Below are positions 36,152 through 47,174 of a stretch of 64,000 nt of DNA, one piece after another (the stretch's first letter is position 1; every line of letters begins with the position of its first letter). The translations under genes were made by a program, and so were the position numbers. The DNA is from Rhodococcus triatomae (GTDB taxonomy: Bacteria > Actinomycetota > Actinomycetes > Mycobacteriales > Mycobacteriaceae), in assembly GCF_014217785.1 (NCBI RefSeq), contig NZ_CP048814.1:4650001-4714000 (forward strand), read 5' to 3'. The notes beneath the pieces are model-generated. The model ran no database searches, had not been told where the DNA came from, and saw only the letters and a program-made list of their open reading frames with translations.

Positions 36152-37258
36152 GTGGCCGAGAACTCCCCCACCGACATTCCCGCGGCGGCGCTGCCGCCGA
36201 AGCCCGAACGCGACGTGGACCTCTACCGCAGGGCGGTGGCAACACTGCGCAGCGCGCTCCCCGCCGGGTGGAGCATCGCCTCCGCCAAGTCCGCGTCGCT
36301 GGCCGCCGCACCGGAACGCATGCTGGTCACGGCACCGACCGGCGAGGTCGCCTCCTTCCACGTCATCACCGCACGCGGCGTCCTCGCCGGTGATGCCGCG
36401 AAGTTCGCCGACGCACTGTCGGATTCGGACCGTGGCTTCGTCTGCGCGCGCTATCTGTCGGATCCGGTACGCCGACAACTGGACGGGCGCGGCCTGTCCT
36501 ACGCCGATGCCACCGGCAACGTCTCCGTCCACGCGGACCGGCCGGCGATCTGGGTCCGCGACCGAGGAGCGGACGCAGATCCGTGGCGCGGGCCCGGGCG
36601 GCCTCCCGCCCAGCTCACCGGGGATCCCGCTGCCCGGGTGGTACGCGCCCTCGCCGACCACGCCGGCGCGGTCACCGTGCCCGAACTCATCGCCCTCGCC
36701 GGGGCATCGACCGGCGCGACCTACCGCGTCGTCGAGACGCTGGCCGAACGGGAACTGATCGAGAGACTCCCCCGCGGGCCCATCACCCGCGTGCGCTGGG
36801 TCCCGATGCTGCGCGCGTGGAGTTCCGACTCGAGTTTCCAGGATTGCCAGTCCCTCGGATACGTTGCGCCCGGGGGTGTCTCGGCGGTGCTCGCGCGGTT
36901 GGCCGGCCTGCCCGACGCCCTGTACGCGGTGACCGGCTCACACGCCGCCGCGACGTTCACCGAGTACGGGACGCTGCAACTACTCCAGGTCTACGCCGAC
37001 GACCCGGACGCGCTGGCCCGCTCCCTCGGCCTGCGTGCCGTCGAGGACGGAGCGACCGTCGTGATCGCCACACCCCGCTCCCCCGCCGTCTTCGACCGCA
37101 CGCTGCTCCGGTCCGGCGTCCGGATGGTGGCCCCGACACAGGCTTTCGCCGACCTGCTCGCCGGGCGGGGACGGCACCCGGAGGAAGCGGAACGTCTGCT
37201 CGACTGGATGACCGCCCACGAGAGCGAGTGGCGACTGCCGGTCGGCGGACCCGCGTGA
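36152..37258 (+). CDS. Winged-helix protein, AbiEi-like layout, function unknown
   Basis: 368 residues. Residues ~1-140 form an alpha/beta domain ending GLSYADATGNVSVHADRPAIWV. Residues ~150-215 form a winged helix (ARVVRALADHAGAVTVPELIALAGASTGATYRVVETLAERELIER in pieces). The last third (APGGVSAVLARLAGLPDALYAVTGSHAA, VRMVAPTQAFADLLAG, EEAERLLDWM) resembles the C-terminal region of AbiEi-type antitoxins. No AbiEii nucleotidyltransferase lies beside it, so a toxin-antitoxin role is not supported. It is the first gene of an accessory segment between the PAC2 gene and mshC and may be a DNA-binding regulator. Confidence 0.6.
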   Translation: MAENSPTDIPAAALPPKPERDVDLYRRAVATLRSALPAGWSIASAKSASLAAAPERMLVTAPTGEVASFHVITARGVLAGDAAKFADALSDSDRGFVCARYLSDPVRRQLDGRGLSYADATGNVSVHADRPAIWVRDRGADADPWRGPGRPPAQLTGDPAARVVRALADHAGAVTVPELIALAGASTGATYRVVETLAERELIERLPRGPITRVRWVPMLRAWSSDSSFQDCQSLGYVAPGGVSAVLARLAGLPDALYAVTGSHAAATFTEYGTLQLLQVYADDPDALARSLGLRAVEDGATVVIATPRSPAVFDRTLLRSGVRMVAPTQAFADLLAGRGRHPEEAERLLDWMTAHESEWRLPVGGPA

Positions 37259-37406: not shown

Positions 37407-38552
37407 ATGACCATGGGAGTCGGGCTCAGGATCGGAGACGTCGTATCGACAGCGGTGGTGGCCTCGAACGACCCGGGGTCGCCGGACCCGGTCGTCATCG
37501 TCCGGGACACCGTGCTGCACATGCTGCCCGGCGGGACCGCGGTGTTCGGCGGAGGCACGCCGAGTGACCCCGGCGTGCACTCGATCTCGGGATTCCTCTC
37601 CCGCGTCGGGCACACCGAGGGCGTCGAGGTCGGCGGCGGAATGCTCTACCGTGCGGAGGATCTCGTCGCCGGGGCGATCCGGTGTCTGTTGCGCGACTGC
37701 GAGCCGCTCCCCCGTCACGGCGGCCGCCACGGAGGGGCGCCCGACATCATGGCGTCGTATCCCACGCGTTGGGACGCGTCCGCGGTCGCCGCGCTGAACG
37801 ACGCGCTCCAGTTCGCCGGGCTCTCCCACATCTCGCTCGTGTCGGACGCGGAGGCAACCTCCGCGTGGTTCGAGTCCGAGATCGCCGAACAGCCGGGGCA
37901 ACTGGTCGGGATCTATCACGTCGACGACACCGGCACCACGGTCGCACTGATCCGTTCGGGCGTGGCCGCGGGGAAAGCCTTCCGCTACGCCAGGGGCGGA
38001 TCACCGGCTTCGCAGCTCGCGACGGCACTCGGAGCGTTCGGATGGCTTCCGGAGAACCTCGACGCCGTCGTGGTCACCGGCGACGGCCTCATCGCCCGGG
38101 ACGCACCGGCGATCCGGGCCGTCGCGGAGTCGGTCAGCGCCAAACTCGCGGTGCACTGCGTGATCGGGCCGGGCCCCGAGCAGACTGCCGCACTGGGTGC
38201 TGCCATCCGTGCCACGGGCTTCAATCCGACCACCCACCGCGTGTCACCGATCGGGCTGCCACCGTCCTACGACATCACCGAGGTGATCGACGCGATCGCC
38301 ACCGAGGAGCCCGAACGCCTCGTCCCGTCCGCGCGTCCTTCCGTGCAGTACGCGGCCGAGTCGGCGCCGGTCGACGCCCCGGTGCACGAGACCCGGGCAC
38401 CGGCGACCACCGCCGTGGCCACCCGGGCCCGACGCGAGGAACCCGAGGCCTCGAGCAGCGGTTCGGCGGCGTTCCGGTTCGTCCCCGCGATGATCGGGGC
38501 GATCGTGCTCGTCGGGCTGGTGATCGCCGCGTTCGTCCTCCTCTGGGGCTGA
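37407..38552 (+). CDS. Hsp70/actin-fold protein with C-terminal membrane anchor
   Basis: 381 residues. VGLRIGDVVSTAVVASND resembles a phosphate-1 loop; IMASYPTRWDASAVAALNDALQFAGL and SLVSDAEATSAWF match the nucleotide-binding-domain pattern of actinobacterial Hsp70-like proteins; GIYHVDDTGTTVALI is a phosphate-2-like loop and LDAVVVTGDGLIARDAP an adenosine-like motif. There is no substrate-binding domain; instead a Pro/Ala/Arg linker leads to one helix at residues ~360-380 (MIGAIVLVGLVIAAFVLLWG). ATG 37407 follows GAGGTG. A predicted membrane-tethered ATPase-fold protein of unknown role, 124 bp upstream of jetA. Confidence 0.6.
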   Translation: MTMGVGLRIGDVVSTAVVASNDPGSPDPVVIVRDTVLHMLPGGTAVFGGGTPSDPGVHSISGFLSRVGHTEGVEVGGGMLYRAEDLVAGAIRCLLRDCEPLPRHGGRHGGAPDIMASYPTRWDASAVAALNDALQFAGLSHISLVSDAEATSAWFESEIAEQPGQLVGIYHVDDTGTTVALIRSGVAAGKAFRYARGGSPASQLATALGAFGWLPENLDAVVVTGDGLIARDAPAIRAVAESVSAKLAVHCVIGPGPEQTAALGAAIRATGFNPTTHRVSPIGLPPSYDITEVIDAIATEEPERLVPSARPSVQYAAESAPVDAPVHETRAPATTAVATRARREEPEASSSGSAAFRFVPAMIGAIVLVGLVIAAFVLLWG

Positions 38553-38676: not shown

Positions 38677-40251
38677 GTGAGTGAAATCCCGGCCGGGCCG
38701 CCCGTGCACGAAGCCGACCCGGTCGGCGCAGGAGGGCACCCGGGTATCCGGGACACCGGTGGCCGCCTGAGAGTGTTCTCGTTCGCGACGGCCGAGAAGC
38801 GGGTCGAGTACCTGTGGGTATTGCGCGCATTCGAGCAGGCCCGCTCGCGATACGTCGTCCTCCTCCACGCGGCCGACGTCTCCCGCATCCTCGGAGAGAT
38901 CGGCGACGGTGTATCGGGGGAATCGGGGGTGTCAGGGGAGCCGCTCCCCTCCCCCGACGTCGCCGCACTCCTCGATCAACTCCATCAGTGGGGTGTCCTC
39001 GAGCGCACGCACGACGGAAGCCGAGCAGCCACACTCGCCGAGTACCGCAACCGGCATTTCGTCTATCAGTTCACCGATCTGGGCTTCGAGGCATTCCGAG
39101 CGGTCGAGGGCGTGCTCGCGGCCGGGCCGGACGAGGTGTCCCTGTCCCGGGCCGCGCTCCCCGACCTCCTCGCCGACCTGACCGACCTGGCCGACGCGAA
39201 CCGGGACGGTGATGCCGAGAGAGTGGCCCGCAAGCTCGGCCGACTCGACGCCACGCTGTCGGACATGGCCGACCGGGCGGCACGCTTCTACCTCTCCCTC
39301 GGCACGATGGTCCGCACCACCGACGTCACGCCCGAGACGTTCCTCGCGCACAAGGACGCACTGCTCACGCACATGCGTGAGTTCAGCTCGGATCTGGCCC
39401 GGTACGCGCCGCGGCTGGCCACGGCGATCCGCGAGGTCGAGGAGTCGGATATCGACCTGATGGTCGCCCGGGCGGTAGCGCACGACGGCCGGATTCTGCG
39501 CCCCCTGAACGAACGCGAGGCGGACTGGCGGCAGCGGTGGGCCGGTCTCGCGCAATGGTTCGTCGCCGCCGACGGAGCGCTGAGCGAGGCCGACCGGCTC
39601 CGAGACGGCACGATGAGCGCAATCGCGGCCGTGCTGGCCCTGCTCCGTCGGGTGACCGAGAACCGCAAGGGCGGAGTCAGCCGGGACAGCCAGCTCCGGC
39701 ACGTGGCCGGCTGGTTCGCCGCCGCTCCCACCGAGGACGCCGCGCACGCACTGTTCCAGGCGGTGTTCGATCTCGATCGTCCGCGTCATCTCTCCGGAGT
39801 CCATCCGCGCGCCGAAGAGACCCACGCCGGCGAGATCACGGAGGAGCAGTCCTGGTGGGAGGCACCACCGGTCGAGATCTCCCGCACGCTCGCCGAGACC
39901 GGCCGCGCGCCCGCCGCGGGTGTTCCGCATCGCGTCCATCGCGACGGGCCGGGGGTACGGCGGCTGCGGGACGCGCAGCTCGCGGCGCAGCGGTCCCGCG
40001 CGGGTGCCGCGGCGTCGCTCGCCGAGGCCGGGGCCTACACGCGCCCGCTCACCGAGCCGGAGACGGACGTGCTGCTCAGGCTCCTCGACACGGCGCTCTC
40101 CTCCCGCGCGACGGTGAGCGGCAGTGTGCACTGGGGTGACGCCCGAGACGGGGGCGCCGTCCTCACCGTTCGCCCCGGGGAGGGGGCCACCGTCGTCGAC
40201 ACGGCCCGCGGTCGGCTGTACCTCGACGGAATCGAGGTCGACGTCCGATGA
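38677..40251 (+). CDS. jetA: Wadjet type II JetA (DUF2397/TIGR02677 family)
   Basis: 524 residues. The N-terminus RVFSFATAEKRVEYLWVLRAFEQARSRY (in pieces) and LLDQLHQWGVLERTHDG followed by EYRNRHFVYQFTDLGFEAFRAVE are the defining pattern of DUF2397, the kleisin-like subunit of type II Wadjet SMC complexes. The complex recognises and disables circular plasmid DNA. First gene of the operon; its stop overlaps the jetB start by 4 nt (ATGA). Leaderless start with no ribosome-binding site. Confidence 0.85.
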   Translation: MSEIPAGPPVHEADPVGAGGHPGIRDTGGRLRVFSFATAEKRVEYLWVLRAFEQARSRYVVLLHAADVSRILGEIGDGVSGESGVSGEPLPSPDVAALLDQLHQWGVLERTHDGSRAATLAEYRNRHFVYQFTDLGFEAFRAVEGVLAAGPDEVSLSRAALPDLLADLTDLADANRDGDAERVARKLGRLDATLSDMADRAARFYLSLGTMVRTTDVTPETFLAHKDALLTHMREFSSDLARYAPRLATAIREVEESDIDLMVARAVAHDGRILRPLNEREADWRQRWAGLAQWFVAADGALSEADRLRDGTMSAIAAVLALLRRVTENRKGGVSRDSQLRHVAGWFAAAPTEDAAHALFQAVFDLDRPRHLSGVHPRAEETHAGEITEEQSWWEAPPVEISRTLAETGRAPAAGVPHRVHRDGPGVRRLRDAQLAAQRSRAGAAASLAEAGAYTRPLTEPETDVLLRLLDTALSSRATVSGSVHWGDARDGGAVLTVRPGEGATVVDTARGRLYLDGIEVDVR

Positions 40252-41726
40252 GAGCGCGCACGATCGGTTCCCTCGATCTCGATTCCTATCAGCGAGCCGC
40301 CCGCACGGTGCTCGCCAACCATCTCGTCACCACCCGCTATCCCGATCGGAACGCCCTGCCGCTGATTCGGGCGTGGGCCCCGGAGTTGCGTGAGGATCTG
40401 GCGGAGACCTTCGGCTACCGGCTGGAGGTGACCGAGACGACGGCCCGGCTGCACACCGTGCGCGACGCGCTACACCCCGCCGCACCGGCGGTGACCTCCA
40501 CCGACCGGCCGTTCGACCGGCGACGGTACGCGCTGCTCGCCCTCGCGATCGCGGTACTCGGCCGCTCCGGTGGCCAGGTCACGCTGTCCGAGCTCGCCGA
40601 ACGAGTCGCGGCCGACGCGGCCGGGGTCGACGGCATCGATCTGGACACGGATCTGGCGGCCGACCGGGACGCCTTCGCCGACGCGGTGGGATGGCTGGCC
40701 CACCGCGGCGCGCTGGCCCTCGCCGACGGGGACGCCGGCGGGTGGACGGCGGATCCGGAGGCAGGCGAGGCGCTGTACGACATCGACCGCGGCGTCGTCG
40801 CGGCGCTGTTCCGGCCGCGGAAGGCGGTCCAGCATCTCCGATCGGTCGCCGAGCTGACGGGCGAACCCGAACACCTCGACGACCACCACGACGGTTCGGG
40901 CTCGGACACCGGCGCCGCCGGGCGGCGGGTGCGACGTGCTCTCGTGGAGCGTCCGGTCGTCTACGCCGACGAGCTCACCGACACCGAGCTCGTGCATCTC
41001 GCGTCGCCGCGCTCGGTCGAGGAAGTCCGGCTGCTGACCGGGCTCGTTCCGGAACGGCGGCGGGAGGGCATCGCGATGATCGACCCTTCGGGCCGCCTGT
41101 CGTCGATTCGGTTTCCCGGCAACGGCACGGTCGCCCAGGTCGCGCTTCTCCTCGCGGGTGAGATCTGCGACCGCGTCCTCGCCGAGCAGCCGAGTGCCGA
41201 TACGGGCACCGACACCGGCCCGGACACCGAGGGCACGGCCACGCCGGAGCGACGTGCGTGGCACGACGACCGCTCCGCGGTCCTCACGGCGCAACTGGAC
41301 GGCGCGATGCCGCGGAACGGGGTGTTCGACGCGCTCGCCACCGACACCGACACCACCGACACCGGCCGCCATCCTGGAGCCGACCACCACGAACGGGCGT
41401 CGGCACACCCCTTCCTCGGAGACGACTGGCTCACCGCCACGGTCGACGCGCTCTCCGTGCGCTACGGCCGGACCTTCGCCGCCCAGTGGCAGGCCGACCC
41501 CCGCGGGCTGGCGCGCCGGGCCGTGGACGTCCTGGACCGGCTGCGTCTCGTGCATCCGGTTCCCGGTGGCCTCCTCGCGCTTCCCGCGCTCGCCCGATAC
41601 CGGGGTGTCGTGGTCGGTATCCGTTCGCGGACGGCCGATCCCGCGCTCTTCGAGCCGCCCCCACCCGAACCGATCCCGCCGATCACGGACACGACCACAG
41701 ACCAGACGAACGACGAGGCGTCATGA
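40248..41726 (+). CDS. jetB: Wadjet type II JetB (DUF2398/TIGR02678 family)
   Basis: 492 residues. YQRAARTVLANHLVTTRYPDRNALPLIRAW and LREDLAETFGYRLEVTETTARL, with DRPFDRRRYALLALAIAVLGR, match DUF2398, the KITE-type winged-helix partner of the JetA/JetC complex. Regions rich in Asp/Thr (about residues 320-385) look like flexible linkers. Start and stop overlap neighbours by 4 nt on both sides, so jetA, jetB and jetC are one coupled unit. Confidence 0.85.
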   Translation: MRARTIGSLDLDSYQRAARTVLANHLVTTRYPDRNALPLIRAWAPELREDLAETFGYRLEVTETTARLHTVRDALHPAAPAVTSTDRPFDRRRYALLALAIAVLGRSGGQVTLSELAERVAADAAGVDGIDLDTDLAADRDAFADAVGWLAHRGALALADGDAGGWTADPEAGEALYDIDRGVVAALFRPRKAVQHLRSVAELTGEPEHLDDHHDGSGSDTGAAGRRVRRALVERPVVYADELTDTELVHLASPRSVEEVRLLTGLVPERRREGIAMIDPSGRLSSIRFPGNGTVAQVALLLAGEICDRVLAEQPSADTGTDTGPDTEGTATPERRAWHDDRSAVLTAQLDGAMPRNGVFDALATDTDTTDTGRHPGADHHERASAHPFLGDDWLTATVDALSVRYGRTFAAQWQADPRGLARRAVDVLDRLRLVHPVPGGLLALPALARYRGVVVGIRSRTADPALFEPPPPEPIPPITDTTTDQTNDEAS

Positions 41727-44700
41727 CGAACAGTGCCCGCTTCCGCCCCACCCGGGCGGGGATCATCAACCTCTGGGACTACGAGGACCAGGAGTTCTGC
41801 TTCGCCGACGGTCGCCTGGTGCTGCGCGGCCCCAACGGATCCGGGAAGACCAAGGCGCTCGAGGTGTTGTTCCCGTTCGTCCTCGACGGCCGGATCGAAC
41901 CGCGTCGGCTCAACCCCTTCGCCGGCGAGGAACGCACGATGAAGTCCAATCTGCTCTACCGCGGACAGGACAGCGCGTACTCGTACGTGTGGATGGAGTT
42001 CTGCCGAGGCCCGGAGGACGACCCCGAGGCCGTGACGGTGGGGATCGGAATGCGGGCGGCGCGCACCGCCGACAAGGTCACCCGCTGGTACTTCGTGGCG
42101 GACGGACGTGTCGGCGTGGACTTCTCGCTGCTGGCCGACGACGACCGGCCCCTCACGAGGAGGCAACTCGCGGAAGCCCTCGGCAGCGACAGCATCACCG
42201 ATCGCCCCGTCGACTACCGCGCGTCGATCGATGCACGCATGTTCGGTCTCGGTCGGCAACGCTACGATCAGCTGATCAATCTGGTTCTCACACTGCGCCG
42301 TCCGCAGCTGGCGAAGAACCTGGACCCGAAGGGGCTGTCCCGGGCGCTCACCGACGGCCTCCGGCCACTCGACGAGAACCTCGTCATGGAGGCCGCGCGG
42401 TCGTTCACGGACATGGAGGACGTCGCGCGGGCACTCGAGGGTCTCGCGGCGGCGGACAGTGCGACGACGGCATTTCTCGACGTCTACACGAACTATCTCC
42501 GGAGACAGGTTCGCGCCGACGTCGAACAACTCACCACCCGGCTGGAGGCGGTCGATGCCGCGACCCGGGATCTGGCGTCCGCGGCCGCCGAACGCGATGC
42601 CGGCCACCGCGAACGCGACGTCGCCGCAGGGGACGTCGAGGCCGCCGAGCACGCGGTCGAGCAGGCCCGCGCCCAGCTCGAGGCGCTCCAGCAGTCCAGC
42701 GCGTACAAGGGCAAGGAGCAACTCGACGATCTCGCCCAGTACGTCGAGTCCTTGCAGGAACGACAGGTCGATCACGAGCGGCGCGCAGAACGTCTGCAGG
42801 CGGCGACCGATGCCCGGGCCGCCGAGGCGGAGGAGTCGCGGCTGCGCAGTGAACAGGCACGCGCCGCGCTCACCCGGGCCGAGTCCGACCTGTCCGCTGC
42901 TGCCGTCGACGCCGGTATCGAGTGGATACCCCGCGCCGAGGCCGGGGCGGTTTCCGACGCCGTCCGCGCCCACGCCGCCGAGCGCGACGACGACATCCGG
43001 GCCGTTCGCGACGCTCTCACCGACGTGGGCCGGGCCACCGCCGTCCGGGACCGCGCGCAGGAGGCCGCCCACCGTTCCCAGGCGCGGCTCGCGGACGCCT
43101 CCGCCGAGGTCGCGGGGGCGGAGGCCGCGGTCGACGATGCCCGCTCACAGGCACGTGCCGCGCTCCGGCGCTGGTGGGTCGACCACAGTTCCCTCTACGA
43201 GTCCCCCTCTCTCGACCACTCGCCCGGATCGGCTGCTCCCCTGGTGCAGGCCCTCGAGGAGACCCTGGACCGGATCGGCGACGCCGACGCCCCGACGTCG
43301 GCGGGAGTCCTCGGCGAATACACCGCCGGGCCGCTCGAGCAGATCCGGACGCAGCGACAGCAGGCGCGCCTCGACGCGGTGGAGGCCAGGCGCACACGCG
43401 ACGAACTGGCCGCCGAGCGGGAGCACGTGGCGGCCGAGCACGACGACGCGCCGTCCACCTCCCCGGCCTCACCCACCGGTGACGCCGGTACCGCGCTGTG
43501 GCGGCTGGTCCGCTTCCGGGACGACGTACCCGAGCGTGACGCGGCCCGGATCGAAGCCGCTCTCCGCGCGGCGAACCTGCTGGACGCCCGGGTGCTCCCC
43601 GACCACGAGCCGCGGCCGGGCGGGGACGGCTCGACCGAGCTCGGCCGGGTGCTGACTCCCCTGCCCGCGTCCGCCCGCCCGAACGGGCGCACCCTGTCCG
43701 CCGTGCTCGAGGTGGAGGATCCCACGGGACCCGAAACGGACTCGCTGCGGGCAATTCTCGACTCCGTGGCGCTCGACGACATGTCGGCACAGGTCGCCGT
43801 CGACACGAGGGGGCGGTTCCGCCTGGGGATCCAGGCCGGTGCCCACGTGAAGGACCACGCCGAGTACATCGGGGCCACCGCACGCGCGCGCCGCCGGGCA
43901 GCGCGGATCGCCGAGATCGACGCCGCACTCGCCGGGGCCGAGGAAGCCCTGGCCGTCGCCGAGAGCGCCGAGACCGCGGCCGCGGCGCGTATCGCCGAGT
44001 TCGCGGCCGCCGCGAAGGCGCTCCCGCGCACCGGTGAGATCGTCGCCGCGCGACGCCGCGTGGCCGAGTCGGCGGGTGCGCTACGGACGCAGACCGAACT
44101 CGCGGAGTCGGCCCGCAGCGACCTCGATCGGGCAGTGGTCGAGGTGTCCGGGCGCGATCGCGAGCTCGCGTCGACCGGAGCCTCACGCACCGTCCCCACC
44201 ACACCGCGGGCGCTCGACTCGCTGTCCGCAGCGGTGCGGCATTTCGAGGACCGGGGCGCCGCGGTCGTGCGCCTGCACCGGGAGTGCGCGGTGGCCGACG
44301 ACGCCGCGGCCCGGGCACGGGAACGATGGGAGGAGGCCCGGACCGACGCGGCCGATCACGCCGAGACCGCCGCGGCCGACCGGGAACGCCACGACACCCA
44401 GGCTCGCCGGCTCGCGACACTGCGGGACTCGCTCGGCGCGGACGCCGAGCAGATCGACGCCGAGATCGCGTCCACCCGCGCCCGGGTGGAGTCAGGCAAG
44501 ACCGACGAACGCCGCGCCCGCGCCGTGTTGCAGGCCACCCTGGAACGGATCTCGGCGGCCGATGCCGCCCACACGTCGGCCGCCGCGACGCTGCTGCACA
44601 CCGTCGGCGAGGCGCAGTCCGATGCACACCGGCTCGCTCCGTGCGCCCGTCCGGACGTCCTGGCACTGCTCGGGGTTCCCGCGGCCGACACGGAGGTCGC

Positions 44701-45910
44701 CTGGCCCGCGAGCGAGGGGGCGTGGTCCACCCCCGAGCAGGTCACCTACCGTCTCACCACGGGCGCCACCGGTCCCGGGGACGCGGCGATCCTGCCGGAC
44801 GAGGTCACCGCCCTGTACCGCGCGCTCGACACGGCCACCGCGGCGGTCTCCGGCGGGGAGTCCGCGCGCAAGTCCAGCCGAACCGCGCTGTCCGCGGCGT
44901 TGCAACGCTTCGAGTCCCAGCTCACCGCCGCCCAGCGGGACTATCGGCTGCGCTGGGACGCACCGGATCATCTCACCGTGGTCGAGGTCCAGGACGAACA
45001 CGGCGCGTCGTCGATCACCGACTTCGCGGCGCGGATCGCGGCCGCACGTGCGGACCAGGAACTCCTCCTCACCGATTCCGAACGGCGGATCCTCGAGGAT
45101 GCTCTGCTCGGGGGTCTCGCCCAGCAGATTCACGAGCGGACCGTGGAGGCCCGGGCCCTGATCTCGCGGATGGGTGCCGAGATGCGGGAGCGGAAGATGT
45201 CCTCCGGCAACACGATCGGCATCCACTGGGGTCTCGCCGACTCGCTCGACGACGACGCCCGTGCCGTCGCGAAGCTGCTGGATCGCGACGCGACCACCCT
45301 GGGCGCGGAGGAACTGGCCGCGATGCGCGCCCATTTCGCCGCCCGGATCCGCACCGCGCGGGCGGCGCATCCGGAGCGTTCGTACCCCGAGATCCTCTCG
45401 GAGGCACTCGACTACCGTCGCTGGCGCTCGTTCACCTTCACCCTGCTCGGTGCCGACGGCAGCGAGGATCGGCTCACCGTGGCCCGGCACAGTGCGCTCT
45501 CCGGCGGCGAGCAGTCCGTCTCGCTGCATCTGCCGCTGTTCGCCGCCGCGCACGTGATGCTCGACTCGGCCGACCCTCAGGCGCCCCGGCTGCTCGCCCT
45601 CGACGAGGCCTTCGCCGGTGTCGACGAGAACGGGCGCCGGGAGCTGCTGGGGCTCACGGTCCAGTTCGATCTGGACCTGTTCATGACCGGCTACGACCTG
45701 TGGGTCACCCACGCCGAGGTGCCGGCGTGCGCGCACTACGACCTCTCGCACTCGGCGGCCGCCCACGCGGTGAGCGCCGTCCTCATGGTGTGGTCTTCGG
45801 GCGAGTTGCTCGCCGAACACGACGGCTCCGGGCTCGAACGGGCACTGGGCTCGCCGCTGCGGCGGCGGGTACTCCCCGCCGGGGACGCGCTCGAGTTCGT
45901 CGAGGTGTGA
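41723..45910 (+). CDS. jetC: Wadjet type II JetC, SMC/MukB-like ATPase (TIGR02680 family)
   Basis: 1395 residues. RAGIINLWDYEDQEFCFADGRLVLRG precedes Walker A GPNGSGKT (36-43). A long Ala/Arg/Glu-rich coiled coil spans roughly residues 260-1150 with a probable hinge near 570-720. The ABC signature LSGGEQ is at 1259-1264 and Walker B LLALDEAFAG has Asp1294 and Glu1295, so the ATPase looks intact. It is the DNA-extruding motor of a Wadjet complex. Its stop is 22 bp from the convergent mshC stop; no jetD (DUF2399 TOPRIM nuclease) gene follows. Confidence 0.9.
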   Translation: MTNSARFRPTRAGIINLWDYEDQEFCFADGRLVLRGPNGSGKTKALEVLFPFVLDGRIEPRRLNPFAGEERTMKSNLLYRGQDSAYSYVWMEFCRGPEDDPEAVTVGIGMRAARTADKVTRWYFVADGRVGVDFSLLADDDRPLTRRQLAEALGSDSITDRPVDYRASIDARMFGLGRQRYDQLINLVLTLRRPQLAKNLDPKGLSRALTDGLRPLDENLVMEAARSFTDMEDVARALEGLAAADSATTAFLDVYTNYLRRQVRADVEQLTTRLEAVDAATRDLASAAAERDAGHRERDVAAGDVEAAEHAVEQARAQLEALQQSSAYKGKEQLDDLAQYVESLQERQVDHERRAERLQAATDARAAEAEESRLRSEQARAALTRAESDLSAAAVDAGIEWIPRAEAGAVSDAVRAHAAERDDDIRAVRDALTDVGRATAVRDRAQEAAHRSQARLADASAEVAGAEAAVDDARSQARAALRRWWVDHSSLYESPSLDHSPGSAAPLVQALEETLDRIGDADAPTSAGVLGEYTAGPLEQIRTQRQQARLDAVEARRTRDELAAEREHVAAEHDDAPSTSPASPTGDAGTALWRLVRFRDDVPERDAARIEAALRAANLLDARVLPDHEPRPGGDGSTELGRVLTPLPASARPNGRTLSAVLEVEDPTGPETDSLRAILDSVALDDMSAQVAVDTRGRFRLGIQAGAHVKDHAEYIGATARARRRAARIAEIDAALAGAEEALAVAESAETAAAARIAEFAAAAKALPRTGEIVAARRRVAESAGALRTQTELAESARSDLDRAVVEVSGRDRELASTGASRTVPTTPRALDSLSAAVRHFEDRGAAVVRLHRECAVADDAAARARERWEEARTDAADHAETAAADRERHDTQARRLATLRDSLGADAEQIDAEIASTRARVESGKTDERRARAVLQATLERISAADAAHTSAAATLLHTVGEAQSDAHRLAPCARPDVLALLGVPAADTEVAWPASEGAWSTPEQVTYRLTTGATGPGDAAILPDEVTALYRALDTATAAVSGGESARKSSRTALSAALQRFESQLTAAQRDYRLRWDAPDHLTVVEVQDEHGASSITDFAARIAAARADQELLLTDSERRILEDALLGGLAQQIHERTVEARALISRMGAEMRERKMSSGNTIGIHWGLADSLDDDARAVAKLLDRDATTLGAEELAAMRAHFAARIRTARAAHPERSYPEILSEALDYRRWRSFTFTLLGADGSEDRLTVARHSALSGGEQSVSLHLPLFAAAHVMLDSADPQAPRLLALDEAFAGVDENGRRELLGLTVQFDLDLFMTGYDLWVTHAEVPACAHYDLSHSAAAHAVSAVLMVWSSGELLAEHDGSGLERALGSPLRRRVLPAGDALEFVEV

Positions 45911-45932
45911 GGCGCGCGTCCACCGGAGCCGG

Positions 45933-47174
45933 TCAGCGCAGCGGCACTCCCAGGAGAGCGTCGACCGCGTCGGCCACCAGTGCGGGGGCGTCCGCGTCCG
46001 TGCCGCGGTGGTCGAGTGCGCGCCGCGCCCACCCGTCGAGCGCCGCGAAGGCCTTCGGGGTGTCGAGATCGTCGGCCAGATGCTGGCGGACCCGCGCGAT
46101 CGTGTCCTGCGCCGACTGGGCCGCGGGCAGGGCCGCGGCGCGGCGCCAGGTGTCCAGGCGCTGGTGCGCCTCGCTCAGCACCTCGTCCGTCCAGGCCCGG
46201 TCGCCGCGATAGTGCCCGGCGAGCAGACCGAGCCGGATCGCGGCCGGGTCCACTCCCTCACCCCGCAACTTGGAGACGAACACCAGATTGCCGCGGCTCT
46301 TCGACATCTTCTCACCGTCGAGCCCGATCATCCCGGTGTGTACGTAGTGGCGAGCGAAACGCCGCTCCCCCGTGACGGATTCGGCGTGGGCTGCGGAGTA
46401 CTCGTGGTGCGGGAAGATCAGGTCGCTGCCCCCGCCCTGGATGTCGAAGCCGGAGCCGATCCGGTTGAGGGCGATGGCCGAGCACTCCACGTGCCAGCCG
46501 GGCCTGCCGGGGCCGAACGGCGACGGCCAGGACGGCTCGCCGGGCCGCGCCGCCCGCCACACCAGCGCATCGAGCGGATTCTCCTTGCCGGGCCGCTCGG
46601 GATCGCCGCCCCGCTCGGCGAACAACGTGTCCATGGTCTCGCGGTCGTAGCCCGACTCGTACCCGAACTGTTCGGTCGCATCGGCCCGGAAGTAGACATC
46701 GGGGTACTGCTCGTCGTCGACGACGTATGCCGCGCCGGAGGCGACGAACTTCTCCACCATCTCGATGACCTCGCCGATGGATTCGACGGCGCCGACGTAG
46801 TCGCGCGGTGGCAGGACGCGCAGCGCCTCCATGTCCTCCCGGAACAGCGCCGTCTCCCGCATGCCGAGGACGAGCCAGTCCTCGCCGTCGCGTTCGGCCC
46901 GCTCGAACAGTGGATCATCGACGTCGGTGACGTTCTGCACGTAGTGGACGTCGTGTCCGGCGTCCAGCCAGATCCGGTTGACCAGGTCGAACGTGATGTA
47001 CGTGGCGGCATGCCCGAGATGGGTGGCGTCGTAGGGCGTGATCCCGCACACGTACATCGTCGCGGTGCGCCCCGGCGTCACCGGCCGAACCTGGCGGTCC
47101 GCCGTGTCGTACAACCGGAGTGGTGGTCCCTGGCCGGGGACGGACGGGATCGCGGTGGCGGACCAAGACTGCAT
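45933..47174 (-). CDS. mshC: Mycothiol ligase MshC
   Basis: 413 residues. ATP-dependent ligation of cysteine to GlcN-Ins in mycothiol synthesis. Class-I cysteinyl-tRNA-synthetase fold: zinc-ligand Cys in [15 protein letters not shown]-like [20 protein letters not shown], and KMSKSRGNL. Length and the absence of an anticodon-binding domain distinguish it from CysS. ATG 47174 is seven bases from TAGGCT. In M. tuberculosis cysQ lies beside mshC; here the neighbour is the SCO1664-type gene. Confidence 0.96.

Follow-up and report, generated by a model that had tools for sequence, protein, structure and literature searches.

A type II Wadjet jetABC operon without jetD in Rhodococcus triatomae and the recurrence of the three-gene form in Nocardiaceae

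Overview

The type II Wadjet locus of Rhodococcus triatomae consists of three intact genes, jetA, jetB and jetC, and has no gene for the nuclease JetD. The locus lies in a stretch of 64,000 nucleotides of contig NZ_CP048814.1 (assembly GCF_014217785.1, positions 4,650,001 to 4,714,000 of the forward strand), referred to here as the window. The same three-gene state is widespread in the family Nocardiaceae, where JetABC in the JetD-less clades is intact and under purifying selection. Comparison of gene orders and trees indicates that the JetABC-only state is most likely derived by loss. It appears, with a probability of roughly 0.6, that type II Wadjet has been repeatedly stripped down to a nuclease-free structural maintenance of chromosomes (SMC) complex that would work as an accessory condensin. 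This option is favoured because of the repeated loss of JetD together with the purifying selection on what is left.

The jetABC operon

JetA matches TIGR02677 at 237.6 bits (cut-off 165.85) and DUF2397 at E 2e-134, JetB matches TIGR02678 at 144.2 bits (cut-off 124.65) and DUF2398 at E 6e-69, and JetC matches TIGR02680 at 756 bits (cut-off 462.85). The PADLOC models JetA2, JetB2 and JetC2 cover the three proteins almost end to end (E 3.9e-168, 7.2e-186 and 0, respectively). Both junctions, jetA/jetB and jetB/jetC, are 4-nt ATGA overlaps. The first-pass annotation had described an intact jetABC operon with 4-nt overlaps and three JetC motifs, followed after 22 bp by mshC on the other strand. The NCBIfam, Pfam and PADLOC matches and the sequence itself bear out this operon, and the open reading frame (ORF) behind it has the CysRS-type domain. 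The coordinates are collected in Table 1.

Type II Wadjet is recognised by JetA (DUF2397), JetB (DUF2398), JetC (TIGR02680 with three ATPase motifs) and JetD (DUF2399/TIGR02679). The first three are all present in the window, and JetD is found neither in the operon nor in the genome. The locus is therefore not to be called a complete Wadjet. A nuclease fused to one of the Jet proteins was considered and rejected, as the Jet proteins of the window are close in length to the longest JetD-bearing ones (524, 492 and 1395 aa, against 522, 477 and 1398 aa) and no extra domain was found in them. Some Nocardia proteins are longer, with JetA of up to 610 and JetC of up to 1465 aa.

Table 1. Coordinates of the jetABC operon, its motifs and its neighbours in the window.
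Feature	Position	Strand	Description
jetA	38677..40251	+	kleisin-like, DUF2397/TIGR02677, 524 aa, GTG start; Pfam domain from residue 34
jetB	40248..41726	+	KITE-like, DUF2398/TIGR02678, 492 aa; ATGA overlap with jetA
jetC	41723..45910	+	SMC-like ATPase, TIGR02680, SbcC_Walker_B, 1395 aa; ATGA overlap with jetB
JetC Walker A GPNGSGKT, residues 36-43	41828..41851	+	identical in 81/81 aligned rows
JetC signature LSGGEQ, residues 1259-1264	45497..45514	+	identical in 81/81 aligned rows
JetC Walker B LLALDEAF, residues 1290-1297	45590..45613	+	LL[AG]LDEAF in 81/81 aligned rows
22-bp gap, jetC stop to mshC-like stop	45911..45932		jetD slot in JetD-bearing relatives
mshC-like gene, convergent	45933..47174	-	CysRS-type catalytic domain, as expected of MshC
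Helix-turn-helix (HTH; IclR/MarR-like) gene upstream	36152..37258	+	relatives upstream in 17 JetD-less and 2 JetD-bearing of 89 loci; not universal
Gene directly upstream of jetA	37407..38552	+	without a match in Pfam, NCBIfam or PADLOC; a few Rhodococcus loci only have relatives of it

Search for a type II JetD

The genome that contains the window is a single contig of 4.77 Mb with a completeness of 100. A search of the whole genome with the TIGR02679 and DUF2399 profiles gives no match over the cut-off. DUF2399 gives one match below its threshold (18.7 bits, cut-off 23.4), which belongs to a type I JetD, with DUF3322 and JetD_C, about 0.38 Mb from the locus. A profile built from the JetD proteins of 13 relatives finds nothing in this genome at E<=1 among the 42 candidates scored, and the same profile finds JetD in genomes G110 and G145. 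The genome-wide search that had been proposed with the first-pass annotation thus turned up no type II JetD. A jetD elsewhere in the genome is ruled out at the level of these profile searches (TIGR02679, DUF2399 and the profile of the relatives’ JetD).

A decayed jetD 3′ of jetC was sought with tblastn in the JetD-less loci. The matches are mainly short ones at the 3′ end of jetC and come from JetD frames that reach back into jetC, and the outcome is read as no remnant. Weak matches farther downstream occur in loci L072 (28% over 131 residues, E 0.002) and L108 (45% over 49 residues, E 0.034), both on the other strand. Two JetD-less members of the genus have weak matches to the JetD profile, at G255:C258:35381-35656 (E 0.0023) and at G049:C14:114835-115056 (E 0.051).

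Distribution of the three-gene form

Of the 28 genomes of the genus, 26 have JetC and two have DUF2399. A draw of 251 genomes from the family holds 106 with DUF2397 (JetA) over the cut-off; DUF2399 is present in 27 of these and absent from 79. The draw from the class comprises 394 genomes, with a near-full JetA in 81 that lie outside the family; DUF2399 accompanies it in 66 and is missing from 15. The class draw has 91 genomes over the DUF2397 cut-off, and the five with short or partial matches only (G361, G424, G451, G517 and G535) are not counted as having JetA. The contrast in JetD-lessness between the family and the rest of the class has a Fisher p of 1.1e-14, a value that is descriptive only because the genomes are not independent.

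The named loci are the best 80 of 265 relatives, and JetD follows jetC in 20 of these best 80. In four further loci, L118, L141, L143 and L157, about 0.75 kb of contig or less is left after jetC; a whole-genome search covers L141. JetD-less JetABC is also seen outside the family, in Frankia nepalensis (L161) and in a metagenome-assembled genome of Streptosporangiaceae (L163).

Probable loss of jetD at a fixed site

The slot between jetC and the mshC-like gene is taken up by jetD in R. tibetensis, G110 and the 11 JetD-bearing rows grouped with Rhodococcoides kyotonense. R. kyotonense itself has no jetD and about 68 bp in this slot. The locus of R. erythropolis NBRC 15567 (L147) has no jetD, and that of R. 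tibetensis FXJ9.536 (L089) bears one. Genome G230 is close to R. tibetensis (dN 0.017-0.070), has no jetD and about 77 bp in the slot, and matches R. tibetensis through the end of jetC up to the start of jetD. A recent deletion of jetD is seen in G230 relative to R. tibetensis. Since jetD stands exactly at the slot in relatives, loss seems to have produced the three-gene form, which would then not be the original design. At the jetC stop, the window and R. tibetensis share 11 nt, GAGGTGTGAGG, after which jetD starts in R. tibetensis; this match is weak evidence alone and consists mostly of jetC codons.

The history of JetD was followed on a FastTree tree of concatenated JetA, JetB and JetC with 81 of the 100 available rows, which comprise 99 loci plus the window. 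The 19 rows left out are duplicates of a named genome, the divergent L070, L073, L074 and L081, and rows that miss jetA or lie on short contigs. The JetD state changes at least seven times on this tree, and seven changes are forced by starred branches. Under a loss-only model with JetD ancestral, 12 losses are required. JetD is taken as ancestral because the gene order of the outgroups suggests so: in the JetD-bearing Streptosporangiaceae and Micromonospora, jetD likewise follows jetC.

In the opposite polarity, the first JetABC operons would have had no nuclease, and JetD would have been acquired at the site several times. The tree alone gives no polarity, and the JetD of Antrihabitans stalactiti, which has a long branch and is 43.5% identical to the JetD of G110, could be taken as a sign of such a gain. 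Against this stand the same position of jetD after jetC in the outgroups and the need for each independent gain to hit the same slot. In addition, quick-search trees of JetD and of JetC from 19 JetD-bearing rows recover the same main groups, with the long and unsure A. stalactiti row as the exception. Repeated gain is thus very unlikely, and loss is the preferred direction.

HNM0569 and R. rhodnii form a group with the window (98); all three are JetD-less and sit on long branches whose join may be false. The first-pass annotation had stated that relatives with jetD at this exact position, combined with a recent deletion here, would count against it. The relatives with jetD at the position do exist. 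A recent local deletion in the window is not supported, as HNM0569 and R. rhodnii, its nearest rows in the JetABC tree, are without JetD too, also at the level of the whole genome; their long branches make the placement unsure.

The surroundings of the locus were compared in 89 loci, with 9 kb examined downstream. Forty of them (27 JetD-less and 13 JetD-bearing) have an mshC-like gene downstream, on the opposite strand; they belong to Rhodococcus, Rhodococcoides, Antrihabitans stalagmiti and Prescottella, in the last of which the gene is farther off. A PAC2-family gene is found upstream in 57 of the 89, Nocardia included. Because these chromosomal neighbours are kept across genera, the locus appears to be a long-established part of the chromosome rather than a mobile island. 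A plasmid-borne origin was rejected: the 25 plasmid records that match JetC include none from Nocardiaceae by organism name, and all are below 60% identity.

Selection on JetABC

All 61 JetD-less rows keep the Walker A, signature and Walker B motifs of JetC and have JetA, JetB and JetC at full length; since the rows were found through JetC, the intactness of jetC is partly ascertained. In two JetD-bearing loci, L100 (Rhodococcus sp. AW25M09) and L149 (Sphaerisporangium perillae), jetA is split between two frames. The ratio of nonsynonymous to synonymous divergence (dN/dS) over the three genes is 0.009-0.196 in 15 JetD-less pairs and 0.019-0.119 in eight JetD-bearing pairs, and the two sets of values are similar. 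Some of the JetD-less pairs lie inside a clade of 27 JetD-less rows, composed of Nocardia and one further genome. For the window, the evidence of constraint comes from codon positions because dS is saturated. Compared with L141 and L144, its divergence is 0.25-0.32 at first, 0.23-0.33 at second and 0.48-0.54 at third positions, and among the three sequences differences at third positions are about 1.5-2.3 times as frequent as those at first or second positions.

These results bear on the possibility that the locus is a decaying defence remnant, in which a jetD made costly by self-cleavage or plasmid conflict is lost first and jetABC is to follow. The frequent state changes, one of them recent in the G230 and R. 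tibetensis pair, would fit such a course. So would two members of the genus: G134 has no JetC at a completeness of 100, and the JetD-less G245 has jetC in two overlapping frames (G245:C30:85034-89181), through a frameshift or an assembly error. However, frames and ATPase motifs are intact in 61/61 JetD-less rows, with the ascertainment noted above, and the tested pairs, including those within the 27-row clade, have dN/dS values well under 1. Decay is accordingly improbable. JetABC being kept intact by selection without a cutter suggests a job that needs no cutting.

Relaxation of a JetD-docking surface was sought in the column conservation of JetABC, and none is visible. Columns conserved in 14 JetD-bearing representatives and below 60% in JetD-less rows number 6/192 in JetA, 3/146 in JetB and 11/448 in JetC. 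The converse columns, conserved in JetD-less rows and not in JetD-bearing rows (distant outgroups included), number 14/217, 16/171 and 55/540. The motor is accordingly under constraint, and may keep the ability to bind JetD or some other partner.

A nuclease in trans

The unrelaxed surfaces are consistent with another reading, in which JetABC still acts against plasmids together with a nuclease in trans, which would be the open type I JetD in this genome and an unrelated nuclease in others. The same genome has a type I locus in the order A1-B1-C1-D1 at about 4.298-4.306 Mb (G000:C1 about 4298120-4306064; L184 3121-11065, minus strand). The jetC1 of this locus is divided by an IS3-like transposase gene into two parts (model positions 11-804 and 807-1105), and the jetD1 is open over 400 aa.

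Type I JetD_C is found in 13/79 JetD-less, 3/27 JetD-bearing and 32/145 JetA-less genomes of the family. G110 is excluded from this set because its JetD_C match is its own type II JetD. The JetD-less and JetD-bearing genomes are alike in these counts (Fisher p 0.76), and there is therefore no sign that the type I JetD stands in for the missing one. Both DUF2399 and type I JetD_C are missing from 66 of the 106 JetA-bearing genomes of the family.

A replacement partner next door was also considered and rejected, as no nuclease is recognised among those clusters that were identified, a part of all the gene families recurring beside JetD-less loci. Among the flanking clusters exclusive to JetD-less loci and present in at least six of them, five span the divide between Nocardia and the rest; their content, judged by eye, includes an adenylating enzyme, an oxidoreductase and ORFs that are likely in the wrong frame. 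Five further cluster representatives were assigned by Pfam scan as a chitinase-like protein, MMPL, GNAT plus AAA, VanY and FMN reductase. Taken with the type I counts, this makes a nuclease in trans unlikely, if less so than decay or repeated gain.

Relation to known systems

The locus resembles type II Wadjet (JetABCD) in the families, order and overlaps of its genes, and relatives at the same site carry jetD. It differs in that JetD is missing, here as in most JetA-bearing genomes of the family draw. Plasmid cleavage as described for Wadjet cannot operate because there is no JetD. Type I Wadjet, or MksBEFG of Corynebacterium glutamicum, shares the kleisin-KITE-SMC core and occurs in this genome as the interrupted locus; it differs in having its own families (DUF3375, DUF4194 and JetC1) and in keeping the nuclease MksG/JetD1.

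MukBEF and MksBEF are likewise three-subunit kleisin-KITE-SMC complexes without a nuclease, a likeness that here refers to family membership and gene content and leaves room for a nuclease partner in trans. They form a separate sequence lineage, and JetC of the window does not belong to MukB/MksB: its best models are JetC2, JetC1 matches weakly (E 2.1e-12), and no Muk-named family is matched. A function on the chromosome is described for MukBEF/MksBEF and may apply here. JetC is also distinct from the SMC of Smc-ScpAB, reaching 22.3 bits with the SMC_prok_B equivalog (cut-off 567.35); a canonical Smc with 1002 bits is encoded elsewhere in the genome. The nearest solved relatives by sequence are the JetABC structures PDB 9qe0/9qe1, which are remote (JetC E 5.7e-70, JetA E 1.5e-14, JetB E 0.011). 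A profile of the relatives’ type II JetD has no convincing match in PDB.

Possible function

The first-pass annotation had offered three explanations. Profile searches speak against a type II jetD elsewhere, no other nuclease is recognised among the identified gene families beside the locus, and the nuclease-free complex is favoured. Type I JetABC is described as a dimeric motor thought to extrude DNA loops and to sense small circles, and type I JetD cuts after complete extrusion of the circle (PMC10586767; PMC12287153). JetABC without JetD would still be an ATP-driven, DNA-loop-extruding dimer like its type I counterpart, and loop closure would be followed by something other than cleavage. 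The complex would most likely act as an accessory condensin that has no nuclease. It may work on the chromosome, alongside the canonical Smc, or it may compact or destabilise small circular DNA without cutting it. The three-gene form would be functionally distinct from known Wadjet, as had been suggested at first. What is confirmed is the widespread, selected JetABC-only state; the role as a condensin is a putative one.

Several points weigh against a nuclease-free condensin. The jetD of the type I locus is open in this genome, and a nuclease could act in trans. No surface of JetABC is relaxed, so JetABC could still work with another nuclease or bind JetD. The window’s lineage, saturated in dS, also has high divergence at first and second positions. 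Several of the dN/dS pairs have dS >1.5, rows are shared among pairs, and JetD may have been present along part of the path between L083 and L069, the pair with the highest value. The FastTree tree has several long branches, the window’s among them, and one of the 12 losses (Millisia, L143) relies on a contig that stops about 0.6 kb past jetC. To these are added G134 and G245, the genus members with JetC absent or split.

A wider proposal, to which slightly less than an even chance is given, is that type II JetABC in Nocardiaceae may have been repeatedly domesticated into a core chromosomal SMC complex with a dispensable nuclease. This would be a conversion from defence to housekeeping in progress, as proposed for the origin of MukBEF/MksBEF. 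A review treats an origin of MukBEF/MksBEF from Wadjet as a matter of speculation (PMC10586767).

Significance for Wadjet surveys

If a nuclease-free role is true, many Rhodococcus and Nocardia loci counted as Wadjet defence cannot cut plasmids. The close JetD-plus and JetD-minus pairs make the turn from a nuclease-armed to a housekeeping SMC complex directly testable, and the locus and its relatives would serve as independent replicates of that step.

PADLOC requires all four Jet proteins and otherwise reports a locus as ‘other’ (PMC9252829). Table 4 of PMC12915292 lists a ‘Wadjet_II’ of three proteins for R. erythropolis NI86/21, without comment in the part available; the abstract of that paper reports three circular plasmids for the strain. 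A survey of 97 Rhodococcus genomes gives 73% as encoding Wadjet, a restriction-modification system and either Eleos or PD-T4-3 (PMC10482375). The Wadjet counts of this survey may include JetD-less loci. A literature search, largely outside subscription papers, found no description of a JetD-less Wadjet or of recurrent JetD loss.

Neighbouring genes and further observations

The convergent gene downstream of jetC is presumably mshC. Upstream of jetA, 23 JetD-less loci, all of the Nocardia clade (e.g., L107 and L120), have a gene of about 430 aa whose N-terminal segment is HTH-like by eye. In group f19 of the class draw, many genomes of one family have an open frame that is separate from any full JetA and matches only the C-terminal part of DUF2397 (model ~300-482), for example at G517:C13:319755-320282; this frame possibly represents a protein family of its own.

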